A stretch of 14,982 nt of DNA. Origin: Rickettsia typhi (GTDB lineage: Bacteria > Pseudomonadota > Alphaproteobacteria > Rickettsiales > UBA1997). The notes under the pieces are model-generated. The model saw only the letters and a program-made list of their open reading frames with translations. It was not told where the DNA came from and made no database searches. The position numbers and the translations under genes were made by a program. Below are positions 54 through 12,496 of this stretch, in pieces (within the stretch, counting starts at the first letter, position 1; each line of letters begins with the position of its first letter). Where the stretch lies: positions 1 to 14,982 of the forward strand of contig CAMDAI010000179.1 of NCBI GenBank assembly GCA_945888585.1, in the 5' to 3' direction.

Positions 54-893
54 TTAGTTATTATTAAAAATGAGTTGTTCGTTGATTGGCTTGGCTTCAG
101 ACCTGATTTTCTCCATCAGATTGCCGAGGTGTGGTTCCTCTATTTGCTCAAGTCTTCTTGAGCGATCCTTAGCCGGATAATTGAACTGATTGATGGTGTG
201 ACAGATGAAGGCGCGATAAGATTGCCCTTTGTCTTCTGGCTGAATTTCTGCCATGGTGATCACCTGATCGACAATACCTGGAAGCTCCAATCCAGTTTTG
301 CTGCCTTCAATCTGCGGCTGATAATATTTGCGATTAAAGTCATCGAGTTTTTCATCCAAGATGCCGACAAACCAAATATTCTTGCTGCGGGTATGTTGAA
401 GGTGAGTTAGCCAAGAGATCATCTCGCGACCATGCAAACCATAAGCTCCGCGAGTATCCGGTTTTCCTGATTTTTCGCTGAATGCTTCAGGTTGACCTTG
501 GCAATATCCAAAACACAAACGACCGGCGACTGTTATGCTGTCGATGAAGATGGTCTCGTATTTATCGAGGAAGGAAGGATCGCCATATTTTTGACAAACC
601 TCGTCAAAGTGGCGCTGACTAAACTTTTGATCAGGACGAAGCGCGCGATTTGGTCCGCCGATAAAGACTGCAAAGTCGCAACATTCCTGCCAAGTTTTCG
701 GTCGGATTGTATCGCCTTGCCAGCCTTCAACAGCGAGATCACCAGCTTCAAGATCAAAAAATAAAGTGGTTTTTGGATTGAGAGTCCAAAGCAGAGAAGT
801 TTTGCCGATACCGGATTTTCCGAAGATGCAGCCTTTGATTCCTCGCGTTTCTTTTAAGCGCTCATCCGCACTGATGATTGGTAGATTACTCAT
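54..893 (-). CDS. Phage-type P-loop ATP-binding protein (AAA_24/Sak4-like)
   Basis: A 279-residue P-loop ATPase. The Walker A motif GKSGIGKT is at residues 25-32 and a Walker B-like strand TIFIDS at 114-119 (Asp118). The N-terminal placement of the P-loop and the total length fit the AAA_24 family of phage nucleotide-binding proteins. Some of these (Sak4-like) are RecA-fold proteins that help single-strand annealing or recombination during phage replication. The start is convincing: a near-perfect AAGGAGG lies at 905-899, inside the end of the upstream gene, which overlaps this one by eight bases, so the two are translationally coupled. By inference it acts in early DNA metabolism of the element. 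The family is fairly secure; the precise biochemical role is not. Confidence 0.8.
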   Translation of the reverse strand: MSNLPIISADERLKETRGIKGCIFGKSGIGKTSLLWTLNPKTTLFFDLEAGDLAVEGWQGDTIRPKTWQECCDFAVFIGGPNRALRPDQKFSQRHFDEVCQKYGDPSFLDKYETIFIDSITVAGRLCFGYCQGQPEAFSEKSGKPDTRGAYGLHGREMISWLTHLQHTRSKNIWFVGILDEKLDDFNRKYYQPQIEGSKTGLELPGIVDQVITMAEIQPEDKGQSYRAFICHTINQFNYPAKDRSRRLEQIEEPHLGNLMEKIRSEAKPINEQLIFNNN

Positions 894-1377
894 TTCTACC
901 TCCTTCAGTTAGAGGCTGAATCTTAAAAGTTTCGCCGCCGGTTTTTAAAACACGTGCTGGCTTGAAGATATTTTTGATATGCTCTGGCCAAGCGGTATAT
1001 TTGGTCTCAGAGATTTTGTAGGAGCTCTCAACATATTCGTCAGGGTTGTCGCCGTGTTTTCTGATAGCGGATACAACATCTTTTAATCTATCCTGATTCC
1101 ATTCGACTTTTTTTGTTAAAACCGAAGTTACTTTGAAATCGCCATCTGTAAAATGGACAGTTCCAGTATCTTTGGAATCAAGCCTGCGAATATTTGATGC
1201 AACATCGCGATATTTTAATGCGATGCTGTTATCAAGCCAATCTTTGAGCATTTTAGCTTTTTGCAGATGCTGAAATGCCTGTTCTTGAAGCGAGAGCAAT
1301 TGCTCTGGCGCTAGTTTTGATAATGTACCAATTGGAATATTTGGAACATCTTGTAAATTAATTTTGTTTTGATTCAT
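886..1377 (-). CDS. Conserved phage-type protein of unknown function (163 aa)
   Basis: The protein has no enzymatic motif that I can see. The first half (residues about 15-70) is helical, rich in Leu, Gln and Lys, and could form a coiled coil (LSKLAPEQLLSLQEQAFQHL is representative). The second half has mixed strands and helices and includes KISETKYTAWPEHIKNIF. The layout resembles small proteins encoded just before AAA_24 ATPases in alphaproteobacterial phages, but I know no assigned function. The start has GAAGG at 1390-1386, about eight bases upstream. It overlaps the HTH gene upstream by 20 bases and the ATPase gene downstream by eight, so it is an integral member of the operon. Confidence 0.75.
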   Translation of the reverse strand: MNQNKINLQDVPNIPIGTLSKLAPEQLLSLQEQAFQHLQKAKMLKDWLDNSIALKYRDVASNIRRLDSKDTGTVHFTDGDFKVTSVLTKKVEWNQDRLKDVVSAIRKHGDNPDEYVESSYKISETKYTAWPEHIKNIFKPARVLKTGGETFKIQPLTEGGRNE

Positions 1378-1621
1378 AATTTTTACCTTCGTTAAAGAGA
1401 ATTTTGTTGTAGGAAGAGCGGTTCTTGCTTCTGGTCATGTGCATGTGCTCTTCTTCATATTTTTTGACGCTTTCTGGAGAGTATCTGACAGCGATACCGA
1501 TTTTGATGTATGGCGGGCCTATTCCTTGCCAGCGCCATTTTTGAAGTGTTTTGAAATCAATGCCCCAACGCTTGGCTAGGGACTTTTCGGTGAAATATTG
1601 TTCTGGTTCTTTGTTTTGCAT
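1358..1621 (-). CDS. Small helix-turn-helix DNA-binding protein (excisionase/AlpA-type)
   Basis: An 87-residue protein. Residues 9-58 match the MerR-like HTH_17 fold of excisionase and AlpA proteins: a helix-turn-helix around YFTEKSLAKRWGIDFKTLQK (residues 9-28), then Trp-Arg and a wing ending in GIAVRYSPESVKKYEEE. Proteins of this type either direct excision by an integrase or switch on element genes. The C-terminus (residues 59-87) is basic and likely disordered. It is first in the block of overlapping early genes that runs off the left edge. Its ribosome binding site GGAG (1630-1627) and its ATG lie in one arm of a hairpin at 1621-1660, so translation may be regulated (see the separate entry). 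The HTH assignment is firm; excisionase versus transcription factor is open. Confidence 0.82.
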   Translation of the reverse strand: MQNKEPEQYFTEKSLAKRWGIDFKTLQKWRWQGIGPPYIKIGIAVRYSPESVKKYEEEHMHMTRSKNRSSYNKILFNEGKNYESKQN

Positions 1622-1660
1622 AATTACTCCTAAGTTGATTGGAAAAACTTGGAGTAATTA
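1621..1660 (-). promoter_or_regulatory. Hairpin enclosing the SD and start codon of the HTH gene
   Basis: TAATTACTCC (1621-1630) is the exact inverted copy of GGAGTAATTA (1651-1660). Inside these arms AAGTT (1632-1636) pairs with AACTT (1646-1650). On the minus strand this makes a stem of 15 pairs with one unpaired base and a nine-base loop. The downstream arm contains the Shine-Dalgarno GGAG and reaches the A of the ATG at 1621; the upstream arm carries the complementary ACTCC. If transcription starts upstream of 1660, the folded RNA would hide the ribosome binding site. The pairing is directly visible; regulation is inference. No T-run follows, so it is not a terminator. Confidence 0.6.
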
Positions 1661-1670
1661 AATAGGTATC

Positions 1671-1713
1671 AGGGGGAGGAGTTCGGGGGGAGAAAGGGGG
1701 AGGAAAAGGGAGG
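1671..1713. repeat. Purine/pyrimidine tract with repeated G-runs (plus) / CTCC runs (minus)
   Basis: The plus strand is almost purely purine here, with G-runs at 1672-1676, 1685-1690, 1696-1700 and 1708-1710, plus GG at 1712-1713. They are separated by gaps of 8, 5 and 7 bases. The minus strand, which would be transcribed into the leader of the HTH gene, therefore has repeated TCCTCCC-like C/T blocks. Such a stretch could form a quadruplex on the plus strand. As RNA it could act as a C-rich Rho loading site or as several anti-Shine-Dalgarno elements. The tract itself is certain; all roles are inferred. It fills most of the gap between the 320-aa gene and the hairpin. Confidence 0.5.
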
Positions 1714-1734
1714 AATTAAATTTTTTTGATGTTT

Positions 1735-2697
1735 TTAGTCGATTTTTTCGCCAGTGTTAAACCAAACGAATCCGTTTTGATGATTTATAGCTTCCAGCAC
1801 GGCGCTGTATTTGAAAAAATCTCTAAATCGTGAAGATGTTTCGATGTCGGCATCGTTTAATAAATCCGGCCATCTGATTTTTTTCTCAGGATTTTCAAGG
1901 TAATGATCACACATGAGCTTAATGATCTGACGCTGTTTGTCGCCTTTGATGCTCCAACTTTTATCACCAATAAAAAGAGTGCTGGCATCTTCGGTGCAAT
2001 AAACATCAGGTTTTGCCTCATCGCTACCAATTCCAAAAATTACATTGGCAACGTAATCCATGTTAAACAAAGCCTTACTGTTAGCCAGTCCAAGCAATTT
2101 TGGAATTGAAATAATTTTTGATTTATTTTTGAGAGATTCAGGAGAGAGATGATTTGACGAAGTGAGTATTAACTTGGTTAGAGATGATGTTGGCTTGATA
2201 AAAAATTCTTCAACTTTTTTAAGAACTTCATTGTCGTTTAGCCTACGAGCAAAAAATACTGCGACTTTCTTTTTGCTTATCCGCGCTTCGCCAACAAAAA
2301 ATAATAATCCTTCAAGATGTTGATTTTGCTTGGTTTTGCTGCTTTCAGAAACATCAAATTCTTTTGCTAAAAAACTGACAATTTTTTCAAAATTTGCATC
2401 ATATGTTTTGAGATCATCTTCTTTTACCGCGACAAATTTTCCGCTAGATGACACGTAAGCGAATGATTTAAGTTTTTCATTCCATTCAACATAAACATCT
2501 TTGTCTTCACTACCAAGCCAGTAGCTTTCAAGGCTTTCACCTTGCGTTAAATAATTTTGATCAATTAGAAATTTTGCTACATCTTTACCGAATTCTGAAA
2601 ATAAAACTGAGTGAGAAATATTAGGATTTTTTTGCTCAACTATCTCCATCAACAATTTGCATATTTGCGGCGTCAGATTCTTTCCATTAAACCCCAT
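1735..2697 (-). CDS. Hypothetical protein, 320 aa, with a possible C-terminal winged helix
   Basis: I do not recognise this protein. It has no signal peptide, membrane helix, P-loop or obvious catalytic triad. Residues 1-130 are mixed alpha/beta. A middle segment, around KKKVAVFFARRLNDNEVLKK and then LILTSSNHLSPESLK, looks like alternating strands and helices. The last 75 residues (from about GDKQRQIIKLMCDHYL to FVWFNTG) have the helix-helix-helix-strand feel of a winged-helix domain. The gene overlaps the 394-aa gene upstream by 25 bases (2673-2697), so the two are co-transcribed and probably work together. No Shine-Dalgarno is evident before its ATG, consistent with coupling. It sits between the recombinase cassette and the early phage-type genes, a common place for accessory cargo. 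Confidence 0.7.
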   Translation of the reverse strand: MGFNGKNLTPQICKLLMEIVEQKNPNISHSVLFSEFGKDVAKFLIDQNYLTQGESLESYWLGSEDKDVYVEWNEKLKSFAYVSSSGKFVAVKEDDLKTYDANFEKIVSFLAKEFDVSESSKTKQNQHLEGLLFFVGEARISKKKVAVFFARRLNDNEVLKKVEEFFIKPTSSLTKLILTSSNHLSPESLKNKSKIISIPKLLGLANSKALFNMDYVANVIFGIGSDEAKPDVYCTEDASTLFIGDKSWSIKGDKQRQIIKLMCDHYLENPEKKIRWPDLLNDADIETSSRFRDFFKYSAVLEAINHQNGFVWFNTGEKID

Positions 2698-3857
2698 TTT
2701 TCTAAATATTTATTTCCTATCATCTTTTCTCTTTCTGACCGGTCTTTCAAGTCGCATCCATTGGGATCAGTGATGTTAACATGCAAAAGTTTTCCGCGCG
2801 GATTTTTATCCGTTGGTTTGAATTTGATCGAAAGTCTGGCTTTCTTGATAGTAAAGGAGCCATGAAGCGGATTATACTGAGCATACCAATCTTGCGCCAA
2901 AGAGTAAATAGAGCGGTGGTCTCTAAAAAGCGCTTCAAGCGTTGTGGAGTTTCTGTTATCGAGCGGCTGCAGTTTGAGTAGCGTTACTTTTACATCGTCA
3001 ATCAAATCAGCCGGATCAACATCTTTCATAAAATTGTAAGGAACTTTCAGCTTTGAGAGATCAAATTTTTTGATCGGAATTTCATCAACTTCATCTTCTG
3101 CTTTTAGAAAAGTGTTAACGAATGCTTTGGCAAGTTTGCCGCGATTTTCTTTGCAATCAGAAACGACCTCAACAATGCCTGTGTGAGGTTCATAGCTAAT
3201 CGAAAATTCATTTACTGTTGGAAAATATTTCGTGACGACTTCTTCTTTTTCAAAAGTTTGAAGTGATTTGTGCAATCCGTCATGATAGGCGATAAGCTGG
3301 AAGATGGCTATTTCTTTGTCGGTATGATCGGTTTTGATGCGCTCAAAAATTTCAACTTTGATTTTTTTGCTGATGTTAAAGCACTCAAGCACCGCCTGCT
3401 TAAATTCCTCTAGATGCTCTTTGGTGTTATGAATTTCCATTTCCTTAGGCGCTACAAAAGAACTCCACTCACGCGATTTTCTTTTGTAATCAAGTGATGC
3501 ACAATATTCAGCTTTTTCAAATTCTTGCGGATGATTCTGCAACGCCCAAATGCAGCGTGAATGTTCGCTTTTTAAGCTGAGAAAATTGTCGTTACTGGCA
3601 ATTGCTGGTCGCGCTAGAAGGTTTGTCTGTCCAAGTTCGTCAATCATTTCATGGACGCGCTCAATTATTTCAAAGAGATGAGATTTACGCTCCTCATCAT
3701 CAAGATTCCAGATCGAATTAAAAAGCTGGGAGTAATATTTCTTCGTGCCATTCTGCCACTTAAAATCTTCGGGCAATTTTAGCTCATATTTATCAAGCAG
3801 GGATTTGAGGTCTTCCTCTGGGGTGCTGCGGATCATCTTTTTAATTTTCGCTTCCAT
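2673..3857 (-). CDS. Hypothetical protein, 394 aa
   Basis: This is the first gene of the minus-strand block, and I do not recognise it. It is predicted to be soluble and highly charged. The N-terminal third (residues 1-110) is helical; a middle helical region has IFERIKTDHTDKEIAIFQLI; and a C-terminal domain from about residue 205 has a strand-rich core with FSISYEPHTGIVEVVSDCKE and RLSIKFKPTDKNPRGKLLHV. I see no nuclease, helicase or methylase motif. Its ATG at 3857 has no clear Shine-Dalgarno, and a short inverted repeat AACGCT/AGCGTT (3864-3869/3881-3886) lies just upstream. The 25-base overlap with the 320-aa gene argues for a two-gene unit of element-specific function. Confidence 0.72.
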   Translation of the reverse strand: MEAKIKKMIRSTPEEDLKSLLDKYELKLPEDFKWQNGTKKYYSQLFNSIWNLDDEERKSHLFEIIERVHEMIDELGQTNLLARPAIASNDNFLSLKSEHSRCIWALQNHPQEFEKAEYCASLDYKRKSREWSSFVAPKEMEIHNTKEHLEEFKQAVLECFNISKKIKVEIFERIKTDHTDKEIAIFQLIAYHDGLHKSLQTFEKEEVVTKYFPTVNEFSISYEPHTGIVEVVSDCKENRGKLAKAFVNTFLKAEDEVDEIPIKKFDLSKLKVPYNFMKDVDPADLIDDVKVTLLKLQPLDNRNSTTLEALFRDHRSIYSLAQDWYAQYNPLHGSFTIKKARLSIKFKPTDKNPRGKLLHVNITDPNGCDLKDRSEREKMIGNKYLEKWGLMERI

Positions 3858-4127
3858 GTCGTTAACGCTTTAGGTGGCAGAGCGTTGTGCCGATCGGGTG
3901 ATAAACTTAGGACATTTAAAACATCAAAATCTCTCACTCGCCTACATGAGGTGTTTAAAAGGTACAAAACTCCAATCTTAAAATAACCTTAAAAATTTTA
4001 CCCGATTACAATAATTTTTGTAAATGTTTTGATGTGAGATTTTGCAAAGTGTCTCATTTTGTGTCTAAAAATGAACAAATTATTCAACTAGGTAATCTTA
4101 GAATATTTTTAGAATGTTTGCGATGGA

Positions 4128-4157
4128 TTGAGGTTTGGCGCGGACTTGGTCTAATAT
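4128..4157 (+). promoter_or_regulatory. Weak candidate sigma-70 promoter for the recombinase cassette
   Basis: TTGAGG at 4128-4133 and TAATAT at 4152-4157 are spaced by 18 bases; each matches four of six consensus positions. Transcription would begin near 4164, just before the 18-bp palindrome and about 30 bases before the first start codon. The placement is sensible but the match is weak, so this is a suggestion only. Confidence 0.28.
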
Positions 4158-4167
4158 GTTATGGAGA

Positions 4168-4185
4168 AATTTTGTTAACAAAATT
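4168..4185. promoter_or_regulatory. 18-bp perfect palindrome, candidate operator
   Basis: AATTTTGTTAACAAAATT is a perfect two-fold symmetric site centred on GTTAAC, ending eight bases before the ATG of the first cassette gene. Symmetry of this length is typical of binding sites for dimeric HTH repressors. Candidate ligands encoded nearby are the 129-aa HTH protein at the end of the cassette and the excisionase-type protein at 1358-1621. In RNA it could also form a short hairpin next to the start codon. The palindrome is directly visible; its function is inferred. Confidence 0.5.
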
Positions 4186-4193
4186 GCTACCAT

Positions 4194-4391
4194 ATGCAAA
4201 TACGAACCAATATCAAAAACAACCTCAAAAGAGAGGAGAAATTATCTGAAATTGCTGTAATTCTTGCGAGAGGAATTTACAGATTGGAAGGCAGAAAATC
4301 AACCAAAAAAGAGCAGATTCAACTTGATAAAGAACCGCTGCGAAGCCTTCATAGCACTGACTTTAATACTAACAAAGACTCGGTGCTATGA
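4194..4391 (+). CDS. Small conserved protein heading the DUF2924-recombinase cassette (65 aa)
   Basis: A 65-residue basic protein whose core SEIAVILARGIYRLEGRKS (residues 18-36) resembles the pattern 'LAEILARGLLRLRARKS' in short unnamed proteins encoded just before DUF2924 genes in alphaproteobacteria. This comparison is from memory. The best local evidence is the junction: its TGA (4389-4391) overlaps the ATG of the DUF2924 gene (4388-4390) in an ATGA arrangement, a classic sign of translational coupling. The start is uncertain, since no Shine-Dalgarno precedes the ATG at 4194. An internal AGAGAGGAGA at 4229-4238 has no ATG at the right spacing. Function unknown; it presumably serves the recombinase operon. 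Confidence 0.55.
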   Translation: MQIRTNIKNNLKREEKLSEIAVILARGIYRLEGRKSTKKEQIQLDKEPLRSLHSTDFNTNKDSVL

Positions 4392-4810
4392 ACAAATCAA
4401 TAATTCGTCAAATACTCGATCTCGAAAATCAGTCTGCTCCGGAGTTAAGGGAGCTTTACAACAGCATTATGCCAAAACCGGCTAGTCCTAGTGCAAACAA
4501 AGAATATCTTAAACCACGAATTTCTTATCGCCTACAAGAACTAGCTTTTGGTGGCCTGGAAGAGGAAACAAAAGACCGATTGCTGGAGATAGCAGAAGGA
4601 GCGCCAATAAGCTCACTTAATCGACAAACGGATTTGATGCCTGGAACTAAAATTTGTCGCGAATGGCAAGGCGTTATGCATGAAGTGATGATCCTAAAAG
4701 ACTGCTTTGAATATCAAGGACAGAAATTCAAAAGCCTTTCCTCAATCGCCAAAAAAATCACCGGCACAAAGTGGAACGGTCCGAAGTTTTTTAAATTAAG
4801 ATCAAACTAA
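4388..4810 (+). CDS. DUF2924 family protein
   Basis: The 140 residues fit DUF2924 along their length. An N-terminal helical part has LRELYNSIMPKPASPSANKE and ISYRLQELAFGG. The hallmark C-terminal half has PGTKICREWQGVMHEVMILK, then FEYQGQKFKSLSSIAKKITG and TKWNGPKFFKL. That C-terminal pattern (a short strand pair, 'a..ItGt.w.Gp.FF.L') recalls small DNA-binding or modified-base-reading domains, but the family has no established biochemical function that I can name. It is regularly encoded directly before a large serine recombinase, as here, where the recombinase ATG follows its stop by four bases. By inference it is an accessory factor of that recombinase. Confidence 0.88.
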   Translation: MNKSIIRQILDLENQSAPELRELYNSIMPKPASPSANKEYLKPRISYRLQELAFGGLEEETKDRLLEIAEGAPISSLNRQTDLMPGTKICREWQGVMHEVMILKDCFEYQGQKFKSLSSIAKKITGTKWNGPKFFKLRSN

Positions 4811-4814
4811 TCGT

Positions 4815-6164
4815 ATGAAAAATATCCCAGAAAACCAAGTGGCAGAAATTGATTTAGCAAAAAAGAAAAAAATTCGCTGCGCAATTTACACAAGAAAATC
4901 AAGTGAAGACGGACTTGAGCAAGATTTTAACTCAATTGATGCGCAAAGACTTTCGGGCGAAAATTTTATCGCCTCACAAGTTGCTAAAGGCTGGGTTTTA
5001 GTGCCTGAATATTATGATGATGGTGGATTTTCAGGAGGTAATTTAGATCGTCCGGCACTAAAAAGACTTTTTGAGGATATTGCCAAAGGGAAAATTGACT
5101 GCGTTATCATCTACAAAATTGATCGCTTGAGCAGATCACTTTTTGATTTTCAGCAGATCATCGAATTATTTGATAAATACAATGTTACCTTCGCATCGGT
5201 GACGCAGAGCTTCAGCACCGATGATTCAATTGGTAGATTGATGTTAAACATTGTGCTTAGTTTTGCTCAGTATGAAAGAGAACTAACAGGAGAGCGCATC
5301 CGCGATAAAATCGAGGCTTCAAAAAAGAAGGGAATGTGGATGGGCGGAACAATTCCGCTTGGTTATGACGCAAAAGAAGGAAAACTATTCATCAACAAAG
5401 AAGAGTCGGAAACAGTAAAAATTCTCTTTGAAATTTTCATGGAAAATGAGTCAATAACCGAGACTGCAAGGGAGTTAAATAAAAGGAATTTAAGCACCAA
5501 GACACGGATTTCAAACAGAGGTAATATTCAAAAAGGCAAAAATTTTAATAAATCCAATGTCAGAAGAATTATCGAAAACCCACTGTATGCCGGAAAAGTA
5601 AAGCACAAAGGAAAGGTTTATGATGGGATGCACGAGCCAGTAATTCCTTATGAAACTTGGCAAAACGCAAATCAAATAATCGAAAAAGAAAGAGAAGAAA
5701 AAATCGTAGCACCGATAGCGCGAGTTAATATGGTTCCTCTTTTAAAAGGCATCATGAATTGCGGAATTTGTGGTAGCAAAATGACCCCGACATACACATC
5801 TAAAGGTGGCGTTAGATATCGCTATTACATTTGCGCCGCCAGTCACAAGGGAAACAATGATGCGTGTAAAGTTGGCAGAGTGCCAGCTGGAGAGATCGAG
5901 AAATTGGTCGTTGGTCGTTTGCTTAATGTTCTAAAAAAACCAGAAATGGTTGCCAAAACTATATCAGAGATCAAAGGCGCAATAACCTCAAACACTGTCA
6001 TCGAGTATTTTCAAAATATCGAAAAAGTCTGGGATGAATTATTTCCAGTTGAACAAGCCAGAATAGTAAACCTGCTGGTGAAGCAAGTGGTTATTCAGCC
6101 CGAAGGATTAAACATTGATATCTTTAAAGAAGGACTTGGCTCTTTATCAAACGAATTTATTTAA
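4815..6164 (+). CDS. Large serine recombinase (site-specific integrase/resolvase family)
   Basis: A 449-residue serine recombinase with domains in the usual order. Residues 22-170 form the resolvase-type catalytic domain: YTRKSS places the nucleophile at Ser29, next to Arg27, and KIDRLSRS (101-108) carries the conserved arginines. A long alpha-E helix follows. A recombinase domain spans about 183-290 (IPLGYDAKEGK to NPLYAGKVKHKG). A zinc ribbon uses Cys316, Cys319, Cys340 and Cys351. It is shorter than many phage integrases of about 500 residues, mainly in the coiled-coil tail, but no key residue appears missing. It lies four bases after the DUF2924 gene and three before the HTH gene, so all three are coupled. 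It probably integrates and excises the element; no attachment site can be proven from this window. Confidence 0.93.
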   Translation: MKNIPENQVAEIDLAKKKKIRCAIYTRKSSEDGLEQDFNSIDAQRLSGENFIASQVAKGWVLVPEYYDDGGFSGGNLDRPALKRLFEDIAKGKIDCVIIYKIDRLSRSLFDFQQIIELFDKYNVTFASVTQSFSTDDSIGRLMLNIVLSFAQYERELTGERIRDKIEASKKKGMWMGGTIPLGYDAKEGKLFINKEESETVKILFEIFMENESITETARELNKRNLSTKTRISNRGNIQKGKNFNKSNVRRIIENPLYAGKVKHKGKVYDGMHEPVIPYETWQNANQIIEKEREEKIVAPIARVNMVPLLKGIMNCGICGSKMTPTYTSKGGVRYRYYICAASHKGNNDACKVGRVPAGEIEKLVVGRLLNVLKKPEMVAKTISEIKGAITSNTVIEYFQNIEKVWDELFPVEQARIVNLLVKQVVIQPEGLNIDIFKEGLGSLSNEFI

Positions 6165-6167
6165 ACT

Positions 6168-6557
6168 ATGAACACAGAAAGTGATGTAATAAAAATTTTC
6201 GTTCCAATGAAAATTACAAAGCGTGGTGGTGCAGCAATTGTGATCGTGCCAAAAAATATTGATAAGGACGACATGGAAAAAAACTTTGATGATAAAATCA
6301 TCAAGGCTTTTGCCAAAGCTCATAGATGGAAGAAGGAGTTAGACGAAGGAAAAATTGGTTCGCTTGCTGATATTGCGAGAAGAGAAAAAATCACAGGTCC
6401 TTATGTCAGCAGAGTTTTTAATTTAAATTTTATTGCTCCGGAAATAATCAAAGAAATTCTAAACGGCACTCAGCCAAGAACCTTAAAATTGCAAGACATG
6501 CTAATAGGAAAAGTTCCTGATTTGTGGCAAGAGCAAAAAGAGTTGTGGGGCTTTTAG
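6168..6557 (+). CDS. Small HTH protein of the recombinase cassette (129 aa)
   Basis: The last cassette gene starts three bases after the recombinase stop. Residues 64-86 (GSLADIARREKITGPYVSRV and FNL) form a helix-turn-helix like that of ParB/KorB or sigma-region proteins. The tail has FIAPEIIKEILNGTQPRTLK and ends in a conserved-looking DLWQEQKELWGF. Short proteins with this HTH and ending are known to me as partners of DUF2924 and serine recombinases in alphaproteobacteria. The N-terminal 30 residues are strand-rich (IKIFVPMKI, AAIVIVP). It may regulate the cassette through the palindrome at 4168-4185 or help the recombinase recognise DNA; both are inferences. Confidence 0.78.
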   Translation: MNTESDVIKIFVPMKITKRGGAAIVIVPKNIDKDDMEKNFDDKIIKAFAKAHRWKKELDEGKIGSLADIARREKITGPYVSRVFNLNFIAPEIIKEILNGTQPRTLKLQDMLIGKVPDLWQEQKELWGF

Positions 6558-6685: not shown

Positions 6686-7726
6686 ATGGCGGAAATAAAA
6701 ACTTGCACAAGATGCATCCTAACATCACAGATTCCAAACATTTCATTTAATGGTGATGGAGTTTGTAATTTTTGCACTGATTACGAAAAAGAAAAACAAT
6801 ATCTAGATCGCGACTATGTTGCCTTGGAGAAAAAGATGATCTCCACATTAAAGGTTAGCAAAAAACATCCTTACGATTGCATGGTTCTTTATAGCGGTGG
6901 CAAAGACAGCACCTACATGCTTTACAGGCTTGCTAATCACTACAAACTAAGAGTTCTTGCCTTCACCTTCGATAATTATTTTATCCCGCCAGAAACTTAC
7001 GCCAACATCGACAGAGTTCTTAAAAAAATTAACGTTGATCACATCGTTTACAAACCATCGTGGAATTTGAACAAAACCATGTTCAATGCCAGCTTTGAAA
7101 ATTCCGGACTCAAAGAAAGTTCAAAAGAATTGGCGTTTATGATCGGTCACGCATGCTGGCCTTGTTTCACTCAAATCGCTTTGCATTCAATCAGACTAGC
7201 TGCAGAAAAAGATATTCCAAACATTGTGGTCGGCACAACTCCAGGACAGTTAAGGCAGAAAAAATACGACATGAATTCGAAATTTGATGGGCTGACTGAT
7301 GTTTACAAAAACATGATTATGCCAATGATAAATCTGCTTAAAGCGCTTGGTAAAAATGATGTGATCGACAGCTTTAATATTTCGTTGTGGAAGAAGTTAA
7401 AAATTATGAGAATGAATCTTGTGCCGTTCTTCGAATACAACAAATACAACGAGCATGAAGTTTATGAAACAATCGAGAGAGAGCTTGATTGGCGGAAGAT
7501 GAAAAGCACCGATTCTTGCTCTACCAATTGTCAGTTAAATTCACTTGGCATCGCAATTCACCAAAAGAAATACAATTTGCATCCGTATGTTATTCCTTTG
7601 GCAAGAGATGTTAGAGAGGGATTAATGACCAGAGAAGAGGCTTTAACTGCTGTAGGTGGTCAAGTTAATGGAAAACTAGTTGATCACATCGCCGAGAGCT
7701 TCGGACTCGATTTGAATAAAATGTGA
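6686..7726 (+). CDS. PP-loop ATPase, N-acetyl sugar amidotransferase-like
   Basis: The 346 residues contain the ATP-pyrophosphatase signature SGGKDS at 70-75, preceded by the strand YDCMVLY. Two N-terminal cysteine pairs, CTRC (7-10) and CNFC (27-30), suggest a zinc site, and a further CWPC lies at 157-160, with CSTNC later. The N-terminal layout and the C-terminal ARDVREGLMTREEAL resemble the WbpG/WbuX-type family (TIGR03573), which amidates N-acetyl sugars in surface polysaccharide synthesis through an adenylated intermediate. No glycosyltransferase or glutaminase neighbour is visible here, so the substrate may be different. The ATG has no clear Shine-Dalgarno. Its last 51 bases overlap the end of the reductase-like gene on the other strand. 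The PP-loop assignment is firm; the sugar role is not. Confidence 0.78.
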   Translation: MAEIKTCTRCILTSQIPNISFNGDGVCNFCTDYEKEKQYLDRDYVALEKKMISTLKVSKKHPYDCMVLYSGGKDSTYMLYRLANHYKLRVLAFTFDNYFIPPETYANIDRVLKKINVDHIVYKPSWNLNKTMFNASFENSGLKESSKELAFMIGHACWPCFTQIALHSIRLAAEKDIPNIVVGTTPGQLRQKKYDMNSKFDGLTDVYKNMIMPMINLLKALGKNDVIDSFNISLWKKLKIMRMNLVPFFEYNKYNEHEVYETIERELDWRKMKSTDSCSTNCQLNSLGIAIHQKKYNLHPYVIPLARDVREGLMTREEALTAVGGQVNGKLVDHIAESFGLDLNKM

Positions 7727-8881
7727 ATCTGTGATTAATTTCGCTTGAGGAACATTTTTTATCATGTCGCCATTTTTTCCTGAGAATGGTCCAAGATTGA
7801 ATTTGTATTTATCCAAAAGGCGATCTACCAGATCGATTTTTTCAACATCAGGAATTCCAACCACAAAATCTTCGCTAATTCCTTCTTTCCAAGCGACGTA
7901 ACCTTCAGCGCAACAAGTATAACAATCCTGAGAAGTTGGTAATCTAAATGGGAATCCAGTGTTAAAACCTTCCGGTCCTCTTGCATAACATTCGACATAA
8001 AGGGTGTCATTTCTTGAGCCAAGCTCTGCCTCAAGACTGGCAGCGCGAGGGTGAGAATCATCGATCCAAAACCTTGCTGTTTTTAAATCGTTCTCAGTCA
8101 AGTAAGGAACGCTGTTATTACTTACTAAAATTGCGCCATCAAATTTCGGCATAGCGGTCGCGGCTTCAAAACAGTAAATGGAAACTTTTAAATCTTTGCG
8201 CTTTGTTATTTTAAGCAACTCTTCTGCCTGAGTTTTTAGCAGAGCCATTTTATCATAAAGGTCGATCAGGATTATTTCTTGGGGAGTAGATGAATAAGCA
8301 ATTGATTGACTGACGGCTTTTCCAAGTCTTCCAGCGGCTCCAAAAATTGCTAAACTAATTTTTTCGTAATCACAGTTTGTTTGTTTCGCGGCATGAACAG
8401 CCCATTTTTTTAGAGTAGCAGCAGTTGCGGCATGACCGGTTGTTATGAATGGATTTGCCAGAGGGCGCGGAAGTTTACCATAGTTGCAGACATAAGGAGT
8501 TGAAGCGCCCATTGCAACCATTCTCAAATTGCACTCCGCAGCAAGTTCTAAAGCTGGAAAAAATTGTTTTGCACGAAACTCTCTAAGACCACCGGAGCTG
8601 CCAATCCACATATCAATTGGAACTGGCATGGCAATATTAACGCCAATCATTTCATCGCCAACATACATTTCTGAAGCTACAAAAGGAGGTGTGTCCCATA
8701 GTTCTCTTTCAAATGATGGGCTTCTTTCTTTAACATTGTCGTAAGCAAATGATAGGGTTTCCCAGTCTGTTGAGTGAAACAAAAAACCAAGACCGCCTTC
8801 CTTAGGCAGCTTCGAGCGAACTTCTTCAGGAGAGATGTATCGTTTTAGTTTTAACTTTGGCGCTCCCATCAAACCTCTCAT
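7676..8881 (-). CDS. Rossmann-fold acyl reductase-like dehydrogenase (COG5322/AAR-like)
   Basis: A dinucleotide-binding site, FGAAGRLG (GxxGxxG), follows a conserved segment ITTGHAATAATLKKWAV. That segment resembles the 'TTGNSHTAY' region of cyanobacterial acyl-ACP reductase and the COG5322 'predicted amino acid dehydrogenases'. An Asp at the end of the second strand (IILIDLYD) would favour NAD(H) over NADP(H). AAR makes fatty aldehydes through a cysteine thioester near a conserved I-D element. Here the matching region reads ARFWIDDSHPR with no cysteine, so the chemistry may differ; that alignment is from memory. A CYTCC cluster lies in the C-terminal part. I chose the ATG at 8881; a TTG at 8893 extends it by four codons, and an ATG at 8869 behind GAGAGG is also possible. 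It diverges from the CqsS-like kinase gene. Confidence 0.68.
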   Translation of the reverse strand: MRGLMGAPKLKLKRYISPEEVRSKLPKEGGLGFLFHSTDWETLSFAYDNVKERSPSFERELWDTPPFVASEMYVGDEMIGVNIAMPVPIDMWIGSSGGLREFRAKQFFPALELAAECNLRMVAMGASTPYVCNYGKLPRPLANPFITTGHAATAATLKKWAVHAAKQTNCDYEKISLAIFGAAGRLGKAVSQSIAYSSTPQEIILIDLYDKMALLKTQAEELLKITKRKDLKVSIYCFEAATAMPKFDGAILVSNNSVPYLTENDLKTARFWIDDSHPRAASLEAELGSRNDTLYVECYARGPEGFNTGFPFRLPTSQDCYTCCAEGYVAWKEGISEDFVVGIPDVEKIDLVDRLLDKYKFNLGPFSGKNGDMIKNVPQAKLITDSHFIQIESEALGDVIN

Positions 8882-9100
8882 ATTTGTTACCAAAGATCGC
8901 TGTTACATTTGTCAATTCTGCACGATTACGAATAAATTTCATGGTATTTCGTGATTATGCTGGGCATGTAGCGATAGCTTGTATCAAAATACTTCAAGAA
9001 ATCGGTGTTTTTTTGCTGCCGGAGTAGTTGAGTCATCGTTTTAATTTGAGACAATATATCGATTTTTATCGAAAAAATCTTGGGTGAATTGGTCGTTTTT

Positions 9101-9127
9101 TTGACAATGTGTGCCTTATTTGATAAT
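9101..9127 (+). promoter_or_regulatory. Candidate promoter P1 for the kinase gene
   Basis: An exact TTGACA at 9101-9106 is followed, after 15 bases, by GATAAT at 9122-9127 (five of six). The spacer is shorter than the usual 16-18, which lowers confidence, but both boxes are strong. The transcript would carry a leader of roughly 145 bases that includes the CTTATC/GATAAG and CACTT/AAGTG dyads. Confidence 0.4.
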
Positions 9128-9208
9128 CTTATCCTCTTTCCACTTGATAAGAAGTGTCCAAAATAGCTACAATGCTGGCTGCGTAAGTGTTTTTGGTCTC
9201 GAAAGATT

Positions 9209-9235
9209 TTGAAATAACGAAGACCTAGTTATAAT
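9209..9235 (+). promoter_or_regulatory. Candidate promoter P2 for the kinase gene
   Basis: A perfect TATAAT at 9230-9235 lies about 43 bases before the kinase ATG at 9278. Upstream is TTGAAA at 9209-9214 (15-base spacer), or TTTGAA one base earlier with 16. The exact -10 and its distance to the start codon make this a reasonable proximal promoter. Confidence 0.45.
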
Positions 9236-9277
9236 GGATTTTTTTAAAATTTGTAATCAACGACCATATTAATTTTA

Positions 9278-11905
9278 ATGACTGAGAAAGTTCATAGTGT
9301 TTTAGTAGCTGTAATCGCTTATTTTAAATATGCTTTCACAAGAGGCACATTCATAACGAAGGATAACTTAAAAGCCGCAGTGCTTGTTGGAACAGTGGGA
9401 CACCCCTTGTTTGCTATTCTTCACCTTTATGTTTTTAAGATGCCGTGGGATACCATCCCCCTTAAAACATGCGCAGGTTTAATTTGTTTGTTGCTCGCAA
9501 CGAAAGATCACTGGCCAAAGCCATTTAAAAAACTCTTTCCTGCTTACTGGCATTTCATGCTGATATTCAATCTGCCATTTTTGATAACGCTTACAGCGCT
9601 AAATAATGACATGATTAAAACATGGCCTATGTGGGAATTAATAATGCTCTACATACTAATCATGTATGTTCCGCATTGGTTTGTGTTTTTGTTTGATCTT
9701 GCAATTGGTGTTGGATGTGCCTTTTTTGTCCATAGCGCTGTTAGCCTAACATTCTTTGTTCCTGATGTTGTTCAAAATCCAAATCTTGATCTGATTTTGT
9801 ATTTATCGACTTTTGCGTTTGCGATTGTGTCAGGATTGGTTTTTAGCTATAGTAATGCCAAGGGAATAGCCAATGAGGAAAGAGCGAAAATTTTTAAATC
9901 ACTTGCTGGATCAATTGCGCACGAGCTCAGAAACCCTCTCAACACAATAAACTTGATTGGAAGTCAAATTAACGATTTAGCAACCGATCTCGATAAACAA
10001 AACGGAAGCGGTAGCTATCAAGTCAAATACAACAGCGAAAGCCACATAGTTCCAGGTGTTAGTATAATTCCAACAGCAAAATCGAAACTATTAAATCTCA
10101 CATCTCACATAAGCGATTCAATCTCAAATGCCAACAATATCATCAACATCATCCTTGGAGATTTAAGCGAAAAGAGAATTGATCCCGAAGATTTTGTTTA
10201 TCTTGAGCCAGAGAAAATTTTGCCAGATATTGTAGAAAAATTCGGCTATCGAAACGATGAAGAAAAAGCAAAAGTTAAACTTCTGCCATCAAGACATGAA
10301 GATGATAACTTTTTATTCAAGGCGGTTCCTGATCGACTATCTTACATCGTTTTTAATCTGCTTAAAAACGCTCTTTATTACCTGAATCAATTCCCAGAAT
10401 CTCTCGTTACCATCGGCACTGAAAGAAGAACGATTGCCGGAACTGAGTATAATGTAATTTATGTTAATGATACTGGTCCAGGCATCCCACCGCACATCAT
10501 TCCAAAATTATTCGGTGATTTTTACACCTCTGGCAAAAAAGAAGGAACGGGTTTGGGTCTGTCATTTTGCAAAAGAAATATGCAGATGTTTGGCGGTGAT
10601 ATAATCTGCGAATCAGAATTTGGAAAATGGACAAGATTTTCTCTTTTGTTTCCCAAACTTTCAGAGGAAGAAGTCAGAAGAGCCAAACTGGAAGGTAAAA
10701 AGAAAAAAATATTGTTAGTCGATGATCAAGAAGTGAACTTAATTACCACAAAATCGAAGTTAGAAAAAATCCTGCTTTATGTTTCTTGTGATATTGCGAG
10801 AAGCGGTAAAGAAGCAATCAATATGGCAAAGCAGAATAAATATCAGCTGATTCTAATGGATGTGCAAATGCCAGAGATCAACGGAATTGAGGCTACAAAA
10901 AAAATCAGATCATATGATAAAGAAGTGCCGATAATTGCACTTACTTCACTCAACAGAGATTCTTTTTCTAAAGCAATTGACGATGCAAGCTCAAAGAATG
11001 ACTTCAGCCATTACCTCAGCAAATCATCGAGAGATAATTTGCTTTATCGTGGCGTAAGCAAGTGGATAACCGATCCGCAAGATGACATGTCTTATCTGGG
11101 TGCTAAAGAAGATTATCTAAAAATATTGCGTGGTAAAAAAGTTATTCTTGCAGACGACCAGCAAATGAATCGAATGATTACAAAAAGAAGTTTGGAAGCT
11201 GCCGGCCTTATTGTAGTCGAGGCAAGTGATGGAAAAGATCTGCTAGAGATTTATCAAAAGAGTCTCGATGCAAAAGGCAGATCAGACTTTGATGCGATTA
11301 TCACGGATGTTAACATGCCACCTCATGATGGCGATGATGCTGCTAAAGAAATCAGAACAATTGAAACGGCACACAAAATCAGCCATCATGATGAGATGCC
11401 AATTATTGCACTAAGTGGCGATGGCGACAAAGAAGACATCCACCATTTCTTTGAATGCCAAATGACGGATTATTTTATCAAAGGAACTAAACCTGAATTA
11501 CTGTTAAAAATTATCGCAAACTACCTGATTAAAAAAATCGAGAAACAAAATAGCGGTGAAGATTTAAGCGGTGGTGATGGATTGTTTAATCTAAATCAAA
11601 ATGCTCTTGGTGAACATTTTAGCAAAGAAGATCAGGCAACAATATTGAAATTATTTGTCAGAGATGCTGACGAGTTGATGGAAAAAATTATTGAGAAAAA
11701 AGAAGATGAAGATGCAAAAAGTTTATTGCTTTATGTCCACTCAATTAAAGGAACTGCCGCAAATATTGGAGCTGACAGATTATTTAATTACGCAAAAATT
11801 ATTGAGCCAAAAATCAAAGATAACAGCGCGCCAAAAAACTGGGTAGAAGAGATGCAGAAAATTTATTCCGATCTGAAAAACGAAATCAAAATCCTCGTTG
11901 GATAG
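9278..11905 (+). CDS. CqsS-like hybrid sensor histidine kinase (6TM-HisKA-HATPase-REC-REC-HPt)
   Basis: An 875-residue hybrid kinase. Residues about 32-192 form a six-helix membrane sensor with GHPLFAILHLYVF, DHWPKPFKKLFPAY and LPFLITLTALNND. These align well, from memory, with the sensor of Vibrio CqsS, which binds the alpha-hydroxyketone CAI-1. The H-box GSIAHELRNPL has His215; the N-box has Asn364; G-boxes are DTGPGIP (398-404) and GTGLGL (423-428). The stretch GDFYTSGKKEGTGLGLSFCK is especially CqsS-like. Receiver 1 has Asp482, Asp483 and Asp528, with Thr556 and Lys582. Receiver 2 has Asp626, Asp627 and Asp677, with Ser713 and Lys735. The HPt domain has HSIKGTAANIG with His821. CqsS has one receiver, so the second receiver and HPt are extra. 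The output regulator is not in the window. No Shine-Dalgarno precedes the ATG. A strong terminator follows the stop. Confidence 0.93.
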   Translation: MTEKVHSVLVAVIAYFKYAFTRGTFITKDNLKAAVLVGTVGHPLFAILHLYVFKMPWDTIPLKTCAGLICLLLATKDHWPKPFKKLFPAYWHFMLIFNLPFLITLTALNNDMIKTWPMWELIMLYILIMYVPHWFVFLFDLAIGVGCAFFVHSAVSLTFFVPDVVQNPNLDLILYLSTFAFAIVSGLVFSYSNAKGIANEERAKIFKSLAGSIAHELRNPLNTINLIGSQINDLATDLDKQNGSGSYQVKYNSESHIVPGVSIIPTAKSKLLNLTSHISDSISNANNIINIILGDLSEKRIDPEDFVYLEPEKILPDIVEKFGYRNDEEKAKVKLLPSRHEDDNFLFKAVPDRLSYIVFNLLKNALYYLNQFPESLVTIGTERRTIAGTEYNVIYVNDTGPGIPPHIIPKLFGDFYTSGKKEGTGLGLSFCKRNMQMFGGDIICESEFGKWTRFSLLFPKLSEEEVRRAKLEGKKKKILLVDDQEVNLITTKSKLEKILLYVSCDIARSGKEAINMAKQNKYQLILMDVQMPEINGIEATKKIRSYDKEVPIIALTSLNRDSFSKAIDDASSKNDFSHYLSKSSRDNLLYRGVSKWITDPQDDMSYLGAKEDYLKILRGKKVILADDQQMNRMITKRSLEAAGLIVVEASDGKDLLEIYQKSLDAKGRSDFDAIITDVNMPPHDGDDAAKEIRTIETAHKISHHDEMPIIALSGDGDKEDIHHFFECQMTDYFIKGTKPELLLKIIANYLIKKIEKQNSGEDLSGGDGLFNLNQNALGEHFSKEDQATILKLFVRDADELMEKIIEKKEDEDAKSLLLYVHSIKGTAANIGADRLFNYAKIIEPKIKDNSAPKNWVEEMQKIYSDLKNEIKILVG

Positions 11906-12406: not shown

Positions 12407-12496
12407 TGGCGGAGACGAGAGGATTCGAACCTCCGATACAGTCACCCGTATAACGGTTTAGCAAACCGTCGCCTTCAGCCTCTCGGCCACGTCTCC
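12407..12496 (-). tRNA. tRNA-Ser (anticodon GCU)
   Basis: The minus strand folds as a class II tRNA. The acceptor arm GGAGACG (12496-12490) pairs perfectly with CGTCTCC (12417-12411). The anticodon stem ACGGT/ACCGT encloses the loop TTGCTAA, giving anticodon GCU, which reads the serine codons AGC and AGU. A long variable arm and the T-arm GGTTCGAATCC are present. The discriminator base is G, as expected for serine, and the terminal CCA is encoded (12409-12407). It appears intact. tRNA genes are common integration sites, but no repeat of its 3' end is evident elsewhere in the window. Confidence 0.97.

Follow-up and report, generated by a model that had tools for sequence, protein, structure and literature searches.

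How does a CqsS-type receptor come by its ligand when no CqsA-type synthase gene stands beside it? The question is raised by a stretch of 14,982 nucleotides, here called the window (positions 1 to 14,982 of contig CAMDAI010000179.1, GenBank assembly GCA_945888585.1, filed under Rickettsia typhi). It carries a gene for a CqsS-type hybrid sensor kinase next to genes for an enzyme resembling acyl-ACP (acyl carrier protein) reductase (AAR) and for a PP-loop ATPase. No cqsA or lqsA gene adjoins the kinase gene among the 10 window proteins scanned, the unscanned frames being shorter than 223 aa. We propose that the AAR-like enzyme probably makes the ligand of the sensor, or its precursor, and that the conserved enzyme and receptor module is most likely a quorum-sensing-type system with an AAR-like synthase. 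A preliminary description of the window had suggested that both neighbouring enzymes might replace the usual synthase. For the reductase this role is supported by its adjacency to the kinase across distant lineages, its catalytic residues and the parallel with CqsA, which is found near a CqsS-type kinase of its own. The PP-loop part of the suggestion holds only in what we call the Rickettsiales-type lineage, the kind to which the window and loci L001 and L002 belong (L labels loci and G labels genomes).

Genome contigs were scanned with an alignment of 20 enzymes, which gave 65 loci. Twelve weak, partial actinobacterial matches with 25-28% identity (L054-L065) were set aside, leaving 53 full relatives. 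In 52 of these 53, a CqsS-type kinase neighbours the enzyme, so that the reductase and kinase genes do remain neighbours in relatives, a point on which the preliminary description could have failed. The lone exception, L052:9788-11197, is a 38%-identical enzyme with a DCYSCFAE motif in a Planctomycete metagenome-assembled genome (MAG), with no sensor match within 10 kb. When the window is included, both genes point the same way in 50 of 53 pairs, the enzyme stop and the first sensor residue being a median of 24 nt apart, and the other three pairs (window, L001 and L002) are divergent. L001 is the nearest locus (90% identity to the window for the enzyme, 93% for the PP-loop protein and 67% for the kinase), followed by L002 (75%, 85% and 55%); one protein-database match at 85% was named Rickettsiales bacterium. 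Experimentally tractable hosts of the pair include Paraburkholderia xenovorans LB400 (L048).

The enzyme was found in 6 of 200 genomes of the family of P. xenovorans and in 2 of 262 of the order of L001. By coordinates it lies beside a sensor match in all eight, and none of the remaining 454 sampled genomes has the enzyme without the sensor. These two samples are not independent evidence of adjacency, because seven of the eight genomes were already in the locus scan. Given the few sensors among thousands of genes, we infer that the likelihood of chance adjacency in even four separate lineages is negligible. The patchy distribution would suit two genes with no pathway in common that have become frozen side by side and spread by horizontal transfer. 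However, there are two gene orders, the enzymes of other lineages are only about 54-62% identical to that of the window, and the flanks share next to nothing. The linkage has therefore survived rearrangement, and we consider a frozen pair highly improbable. When six reference loci were compared with all 52, no gene besides the pair recurred in another lineage in more than five loci; the most widespread was a frame of L032 at a distance of 9 kb, which matched L012 as well.

Two loci of this set are unusual. In L007:6855-15126, from a Thiosymbion symbiont, there are two AAR-like frames, and the kinase gene region seems to be interrupted by an opposite-strand frame. L038 has a single 1282-aa frame that looks like an enzyme-kinase fusion, but was judged by eye to reflect a frame change at the junction, since the normal end of the enzyme is lost there; it was not used as evidence.

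The likely start of the reductase, judged by comparison with relatives, is the ATG at 8869, preceded by GAGAGG, which gives 397 aa; the longest frame begins at TTG 8893. The protein had no Pfam match at E 0.001 and no match in a plasmid collection. We take it to be of the COG5322 kind. Its structural match to AAR spans residues 34-380, so that its predicted fold is that of AAR, and C327, which aligns with Cys294 in the CFAE motif of cyanobacterial AAR, is conserved in all 53 enzymes. It differs from cyanobacterial AAR in an extra N-terminal part, a DCYTC motif and its linkage to a receptor; the only NCBIfam match was a weak one to the acyl-ACP reductase model TIGR04058 (21.5 bits against a cut-off of 449.7). 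The AAR-like profile matched the carmabin synthase TAD (9e4x) with E 1.6e-15, and both this domain and the N-terminal domain of the prodigiosin enzyme PigE are thioester-reductase-like. In contrast to the window enzyme, these two domains are parts of larger biosynthetic enzymes. According to the part of PMC8341465 available, PigE is related to AAR and reportedly reduces an acyl thioester to the aldehyde. The window enzyme seems to be a general kind of lipid reductase, with predicted activity on acyl thioesters.

The kinase joins a six-helix sensor to H215, HATPase_c, two receivers and an Hpt domain (H821), in this order; the phospho-accepting H215 and H821 were assigned by motif. An AlphaFold model of the sensor (mean pLDDT 79) has six long helices at kinase residues 28-52, 60-73, 87-109, 116-130, 134-155 and 168-194, which are presumably membrane helices. 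That the protein is a six-helix sensor on a histidine kinase is indicated by this model together with the HATPase_c and REC matches. As in CqsS, this is a hybrid kinase with a receiver, but the Vibrio protein has one receiver, whereas the window kinase has two and an Hpt domain. Its sensor shares 17-18% identity with two from Vibrio, which we take to be CqsS from their place beside a CqsA-like gene, the compared stretches being unannotated. Sensor profile A2 found these two at 112 and 104 bits. Its rows include the window sensor, whose own score is thus no independent test, and L069; because L069 is itself CqsA-linked, the match indicates only distant kinship. The best curated match of the whole kinase was LuxN (NF041945), at 210.9 bits far below the cut-off of 1550, and a structure search with the sensor model gave no PDB match at E 0.001 or better. 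The six helices and kinase domains of the preliminary description were therefore confirmed, but "very like Vibrio CqsS" was too strong.

At the position that sets chain length in CqsS (C170 in V. cholerae and F175 in V. harveyi, as given in the available part of PMC3285556), the window sensor has F189. This resembles V. harveyi and, should the rule extend to the window sensor, would point to a short tail, which is a guess at this distance, and the comparison with the CqsS pocket that had been recommended gives only this hint.

CqsA, where present, appears to belong to a separate system. NF005526, which we take to be the model for CqsA, scored over its cut-off in 4 of 12 and 10 of 38, that is, 14 of 50, pair-bearing genomes, with two further loci outside this count. 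The P. xenovorans gene that it found is 43% identical to the CqsA-like gene beside a Vibrio sensor. In G002, the genome of L002, the CqsA gene has its own adjacent CqsS-type kinase; the same is true of P. xenovorans (G008, L147), and in G009 a sensor match lies about 2 kb from the CqsA gene. The presence of a normal cqsA elsewhere in the genome, which would have spoken against the proposal, was thus found in part of the genomes. It does not refute the proposal, because a CqsS-type sensor lies near cqsA in all three genomes inspected for one. In the nearest relative, G001, a MAG of unknown completeness, no CqsA scored over the cut-off. LqsA/LqsS clusters are known in Burkholderia xenovorans from the part of PMC3376566 available; the reductase-linked kinase of P. 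xenovorans is at a different locus.

Which enzymes stand beside other sensors of this type? In the P. xenovorans family, 40 of 200 genomes had matches to the sensor profile, at 49 places in all. Among the 31 places whose neighbours were read, 18 were near CqsA (up to 1.7 kb from the sensor, often with a receiver-type gene between), six beside an AAR-like gene, four beside a KAS III-like gene and three beside none. The order of L001 had sensor matches in 39 of 262 genomes, and 20 regions were read. The neighbours included CqsA (L187, L190), KAS III (L183, L188), NAD_binding_4 reductases (L191, L199), an LCM-type methyltransferase (L189) and members of an unnamed family (L184, L192, L198); L193 adjoins a haem-oxygenase-like protein, and L194 and L201 adjoin proteins of SAHH-like type, with the neighbours of L192, L194 and L199 assigned by similarity or eye; no clear enzyme candidate was seen beside L182, L185, L186, L195-L197 and L200. 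In the order of G001, some sensor matches below about 100 bits are kinases with, by eye, a transporter-like N-terminus (L195, L200); these enter the counts per genome and are not to be read as CqsS-type. In a sample of the gammaproteobacterial class of the SAR92 genome G004, 20 sensors in 17 of 369 genomes had as neighbours CqsA (4), an AAR-like gene (1, in a genome already in the locus scan), a haem-oxygenase-like gene (3), radical SAM (2) or none (10). All these counts cover CqsS-type sensors only, without a control on unrelated kinases.

For the evolution of the two halves of the receptor, sensor and kinase-core trees were built from 33 kinases, hand-picked where 133 non-redundant sensors of at least 75 bits were available. 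Four Burkholderiaceae CqsA-linked kinases are absent because the histidine-box pattern missed them. Label counts use 28 of the 33 rows, the labels "x", "unk" and "orph" being left out. The enzyme label changes 6 times on the sensor tree and 11 times on the kinase tree, against a mean of 16.4 in shuffles for either tree, while the host changes 4 and 2 times, respectively (shuffle means 10.8 and 11.0). To judge from these sequences, sensors follow the enzyme and kinase cores follow the host. This is the pattern expected if each sensor is tied to the product of an enzyme and has moved with it onto a local kinase core. The KAS III-linked sensors form a joint group, not a strong one (83/77), across Burkholderia and the Rickettsiales-type lineage, but their kinase cores do not (approximately unbiased (AU) test, p 6.5e-91).

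In a quick sensor tree of 98 rows, all labels together change 23 times, against 58.0 in shuffles, and single labels change 6 (CqsA), 5 (AAR), 3 (KAS III) and 2 (LCM) times. Clustering by enzyme is strong, but there is not one clade per enzyme. Here the Paraburkholderia AAR rows were thinned, the labels ThiO, AmOx and PP-loop were excluded, and a neighbour could be up to 1.7 kb away, which labels L002b as AAR. What carries the label FAAL in this tree is not an acyl-ligase, since Pfam finds a phage tail-hub domain there. The window sensor does not belong with the CqsA-linked sensors in either tree: in the 98-row tree it is in a starred 36-row set with 0 of the 33 CqsA-labelled sensors, and in the 33-row tree it lies outside a single clade (100/98) of five CqsA-linked sensors.

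These trees bear on another explanation, in which the kinase senses membrane lipid or the acyl-ACP state in the cell and controls the reductase for metabolism (wax, alcohol or aldehyde), with no exchange between cells. An enzyme of a general lipid-reductase kind fits such a role, a divergent or co-directional layout also suits a regulator beside its target, and hybrid kinases with Hpt require no neighbouring response regulator. However, the pair has no other companion gene that is conserved between lineages, and hence none that would use the product; the same sensor family is found near CqsA, a known autoinducer synthase; and the sensors follow enzyme type. We regard this metabolic role as unlikely.

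Several observations weigh against a reductase that makes the ligand. The AAR alignment around C327 is a weak HMMER stretch (-1.1 bits), although the structural match backs it. In the available part of PMC8341465, no use of NAD(P)H was seen with purified PigE by itself, and cell lysate was seemingly needed. The 10 gammaproteobacterial sensors without an adjoining enzyme candidate, three of them with short flanks only, mean that a rule by which each sensor has an enzyme beside it fails in that sample. In G224, a sensor close to that of the window adjoins KAS III, and no AAR was found, the upstream sequence reading N. L151:276-2816 (G016) is an AAR-type sensor kinase in a genome without an AAR-like gene, possibly a listener. 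Moreover, the Burkholderia and gammaproteobacterial AAR-linked sensors are separate from those of the window, L001 and L002, and one common ancestor of all AAR-linked sensors was rejected (AU p 2.7e-5). One enzyme family is therefore paired with two sensor lineages.

The window-type sensors group with NAD_binding_4- and methyltransferase-linked sensors (98/92). A second kinase, HKb, has sensors (L002b, whose gene adjoins the PP-loop gene of L002, and L182, on a separate contig of G001) that group with the Burkholderia and gammaproteobacterial AAR sensors (96/94), together with the methyltransferase-linked L189a. These groupings would suit HKb as the true partner of the reductase, with the window kinase an orphan or listener. 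We find this rather improbable: in 3 of 3 loci the reductase has the window-type kinase as its divergent neighbour, whereas linkage of HKb cannot be judged in G001, and exclusive grouping of HKb with the Burkholderia and gammaproteobacterial sensors was weakly rejected (AU p 0.014). From the two lineages it follows that in the window lineage either the ligand may have changed, perhaps through the PP-loop enzyme, or the kinase may read another signal.

If the reductase does supply the ligand, its C327 would receive an acyl chain from acyl-ACP or acyl-CoA, and reduction by NAD(P)H would then yield a product at the aldehyde level. This product or a derivative, to which the PP-loop enzyme may add nitrogen in the Rickettsiales-type lineage, would be secreted and sensed as the ligand of the six-helix membrane sensor. 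Its binding would set the balance of kinase and phosphatase activity, and phosphate would pass by way of the two receivers and Hpt to an unlinked response regulator.

In the PP-loop protein, the SGGKDS motif is at residue 70, and there are CxxC pairs at 7, 27 and 157. The protein shares SGGKDS and N-terminal CxxC motifs with WbuX (TIGR03573), its nearest curated family, but at 149 bits it is below the cut-off of 203.2, and by eye its gene has no sugar cluster around it. The preliminary description had allowed that the PP-loop and reductase genes might group with an unrelated polysaccharide locus. Inspection by eye of the frames next to the PP-loop gene of L001 and L002 showed no polysaccharide cluster; a single epimerase-like frame lies in L001, on the far side of the kinase. 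The gene accompanies the pair in all three Rickettsiales-type loci and in 0 of 50 other pair loci. A full-length enzyme (E cut-off 1e-20) was found in 2 of 262 genomes of the order, those of L001 and L002, while G415 matches about 119 residues. The idea that every such module includes a PP-loop enzyme was thus rejected, and the predicted co-occurrence with CqsS-type sensors applies to the reductase but not, outside this lineage, to the PP-loop gene.

A broader reading, about which we are more tentative, is that CqsS-type six-helix sensors could form a general receptor platform for acyl-derived signals, a sensor and its own synthase being plugged onto a host kinase core. The synthases might be CqsA, AAR-like reductase, KAS III-like ketosynthase (a second candidate new synthase class), NAD_binding_4 reductase, methyltransferase and an unnamed family, with the window as the reductase version, and the host core may be kept or copied between paralogues. 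If this is true, numerous autoinducer classes would still await description, and a single small Rickettsiales-type genome would hold several of them. If the reductase makes the signal, it would represent a new autoinducer synthase class, and the CqsS sensor would be a readable marker whose adjoining gene tells the signal-making chemistry. Swapping of sensors and kinases would allow receptors to be grouped by ligand ahead of ligand identification.

The arrangement resembles CqsA/CqsS of Vibrio and LqsA/LqsS of Legionella, in which a six-helix sensor kinase is beside the gene of an acyl-chain-using enzyme, but the window enzyme is an AAR-like reductase and CqsA is a pyridoxal phosphate enzyme. 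It also resembles PhcB/PhcS/PhcR of Ralstonia and relatives, in which, according to the available part of PMC10653808, a fatty-acyl signal is made by an enzyme encoded beside the sensor kinase; the Phc synthase is, however, a methyltransferase, and no PhcB-type methyltransferase matched in the two kinase neighbours or the other window proteins scanned (10 in all). In open-licence literature, acyl-ACP reductase, histidine kinase and quorum sensing occurred nowhere together. Among the matches listed there for CqsS-like receptors, for CqsS/LqsS/PhcS and for Rickettsiales quorum sensing, there was no description of a reductase/CqsS-type kinase pair, which is no proof of novelty. For CqsS with Paraburkholderia, the only work there was, by title and abstract, on a coral Vibrio, and for carmabin the matches listed had nothing on the TAD enzyme.

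The gene layout of the preliminary description is correct (Table 1). The AAR-like and kinase genes are transcribed divergently, and the AAR-like and PP-loop genes overlap tail-to-tail by 51 bases (7676-7726). No motif conserved with L001 and L002 was seen in the divergent promoter region.

Table 1. Features of the reductase-kinase locus in the window.
Feature	Position	Strand	Remarks
PP-loop ATPase, N-acetyl sugar amidotransferase-like	6686..7726	+	346 aa, intact; motifs and WbuX match below cut-off
AAR-like thioester reductase	7676..8869	-	about 397 aa from ATG 8869
Divergent promoter region, reductase/kinase	8870..9277	.	intergenic
CqsS-type hybrid sensor kinase	9278..11905	+	875 aa; domain matches, sensor model, motifs
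Kinase membrane sensor domain	9278..9877	+	residues 1-200; structure model

A mobile-element-like block at 54-6557, with an AAA_24 protein, small frames, DUF2924 and a large serine recombinase, ends 128 bases ahead of the PP-loop gene, and a tRNA-Ser (GCT) gene lies just beyond the kinase gene (12407-12496, minus strand).

Other genes adjoining CqsS-type sensors were also recorded. KAS III (FabH-like) genes were found in Burkholderiaceae and Rickettsiales-type genomes (L132-L135, L098:4798-8547, L183, L188). A family of 313-379 aa proteins (L184:7193-8332, L192:6183-7127, L198:2634-3575) had no Pfam or NCBIfam match where scanned (L184, L198), and its sensors form one clade (100/98) in the 33-row tree. 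Proteins with NAD_binding_4, a thioester or fatty-acyl reductase domain, were at L191:5906-7090 and L199:3467-4657, and an LCM-type methyltransferase was at L189:6159-7658 (L191 and L189 scanned, L199 judged by eye). Haem_oxygenas_2/CADD proteins were beside LqsS-sized kinases (L193:4328-5080 and L216:2041-2754, scanned; L217 and L228, by similarity). Two kinases weakly found by the sensor profile (L195:3391-6228, L200:2604-5387) have, by eye, a transporter-like N-terminus. Methyltransf_33 proteins, histidine-type S-adenosylmethionine methyltransferases, were beside Rickettsiales-type sensors at L246:4596-5255, L247:4062-5090 and L248:958-1950. G224 (1.6 Mb; L183-L186) has six CqsS-type sensors over 100 bits, and several of its kinase cores are nearly identical while their sensors differ.

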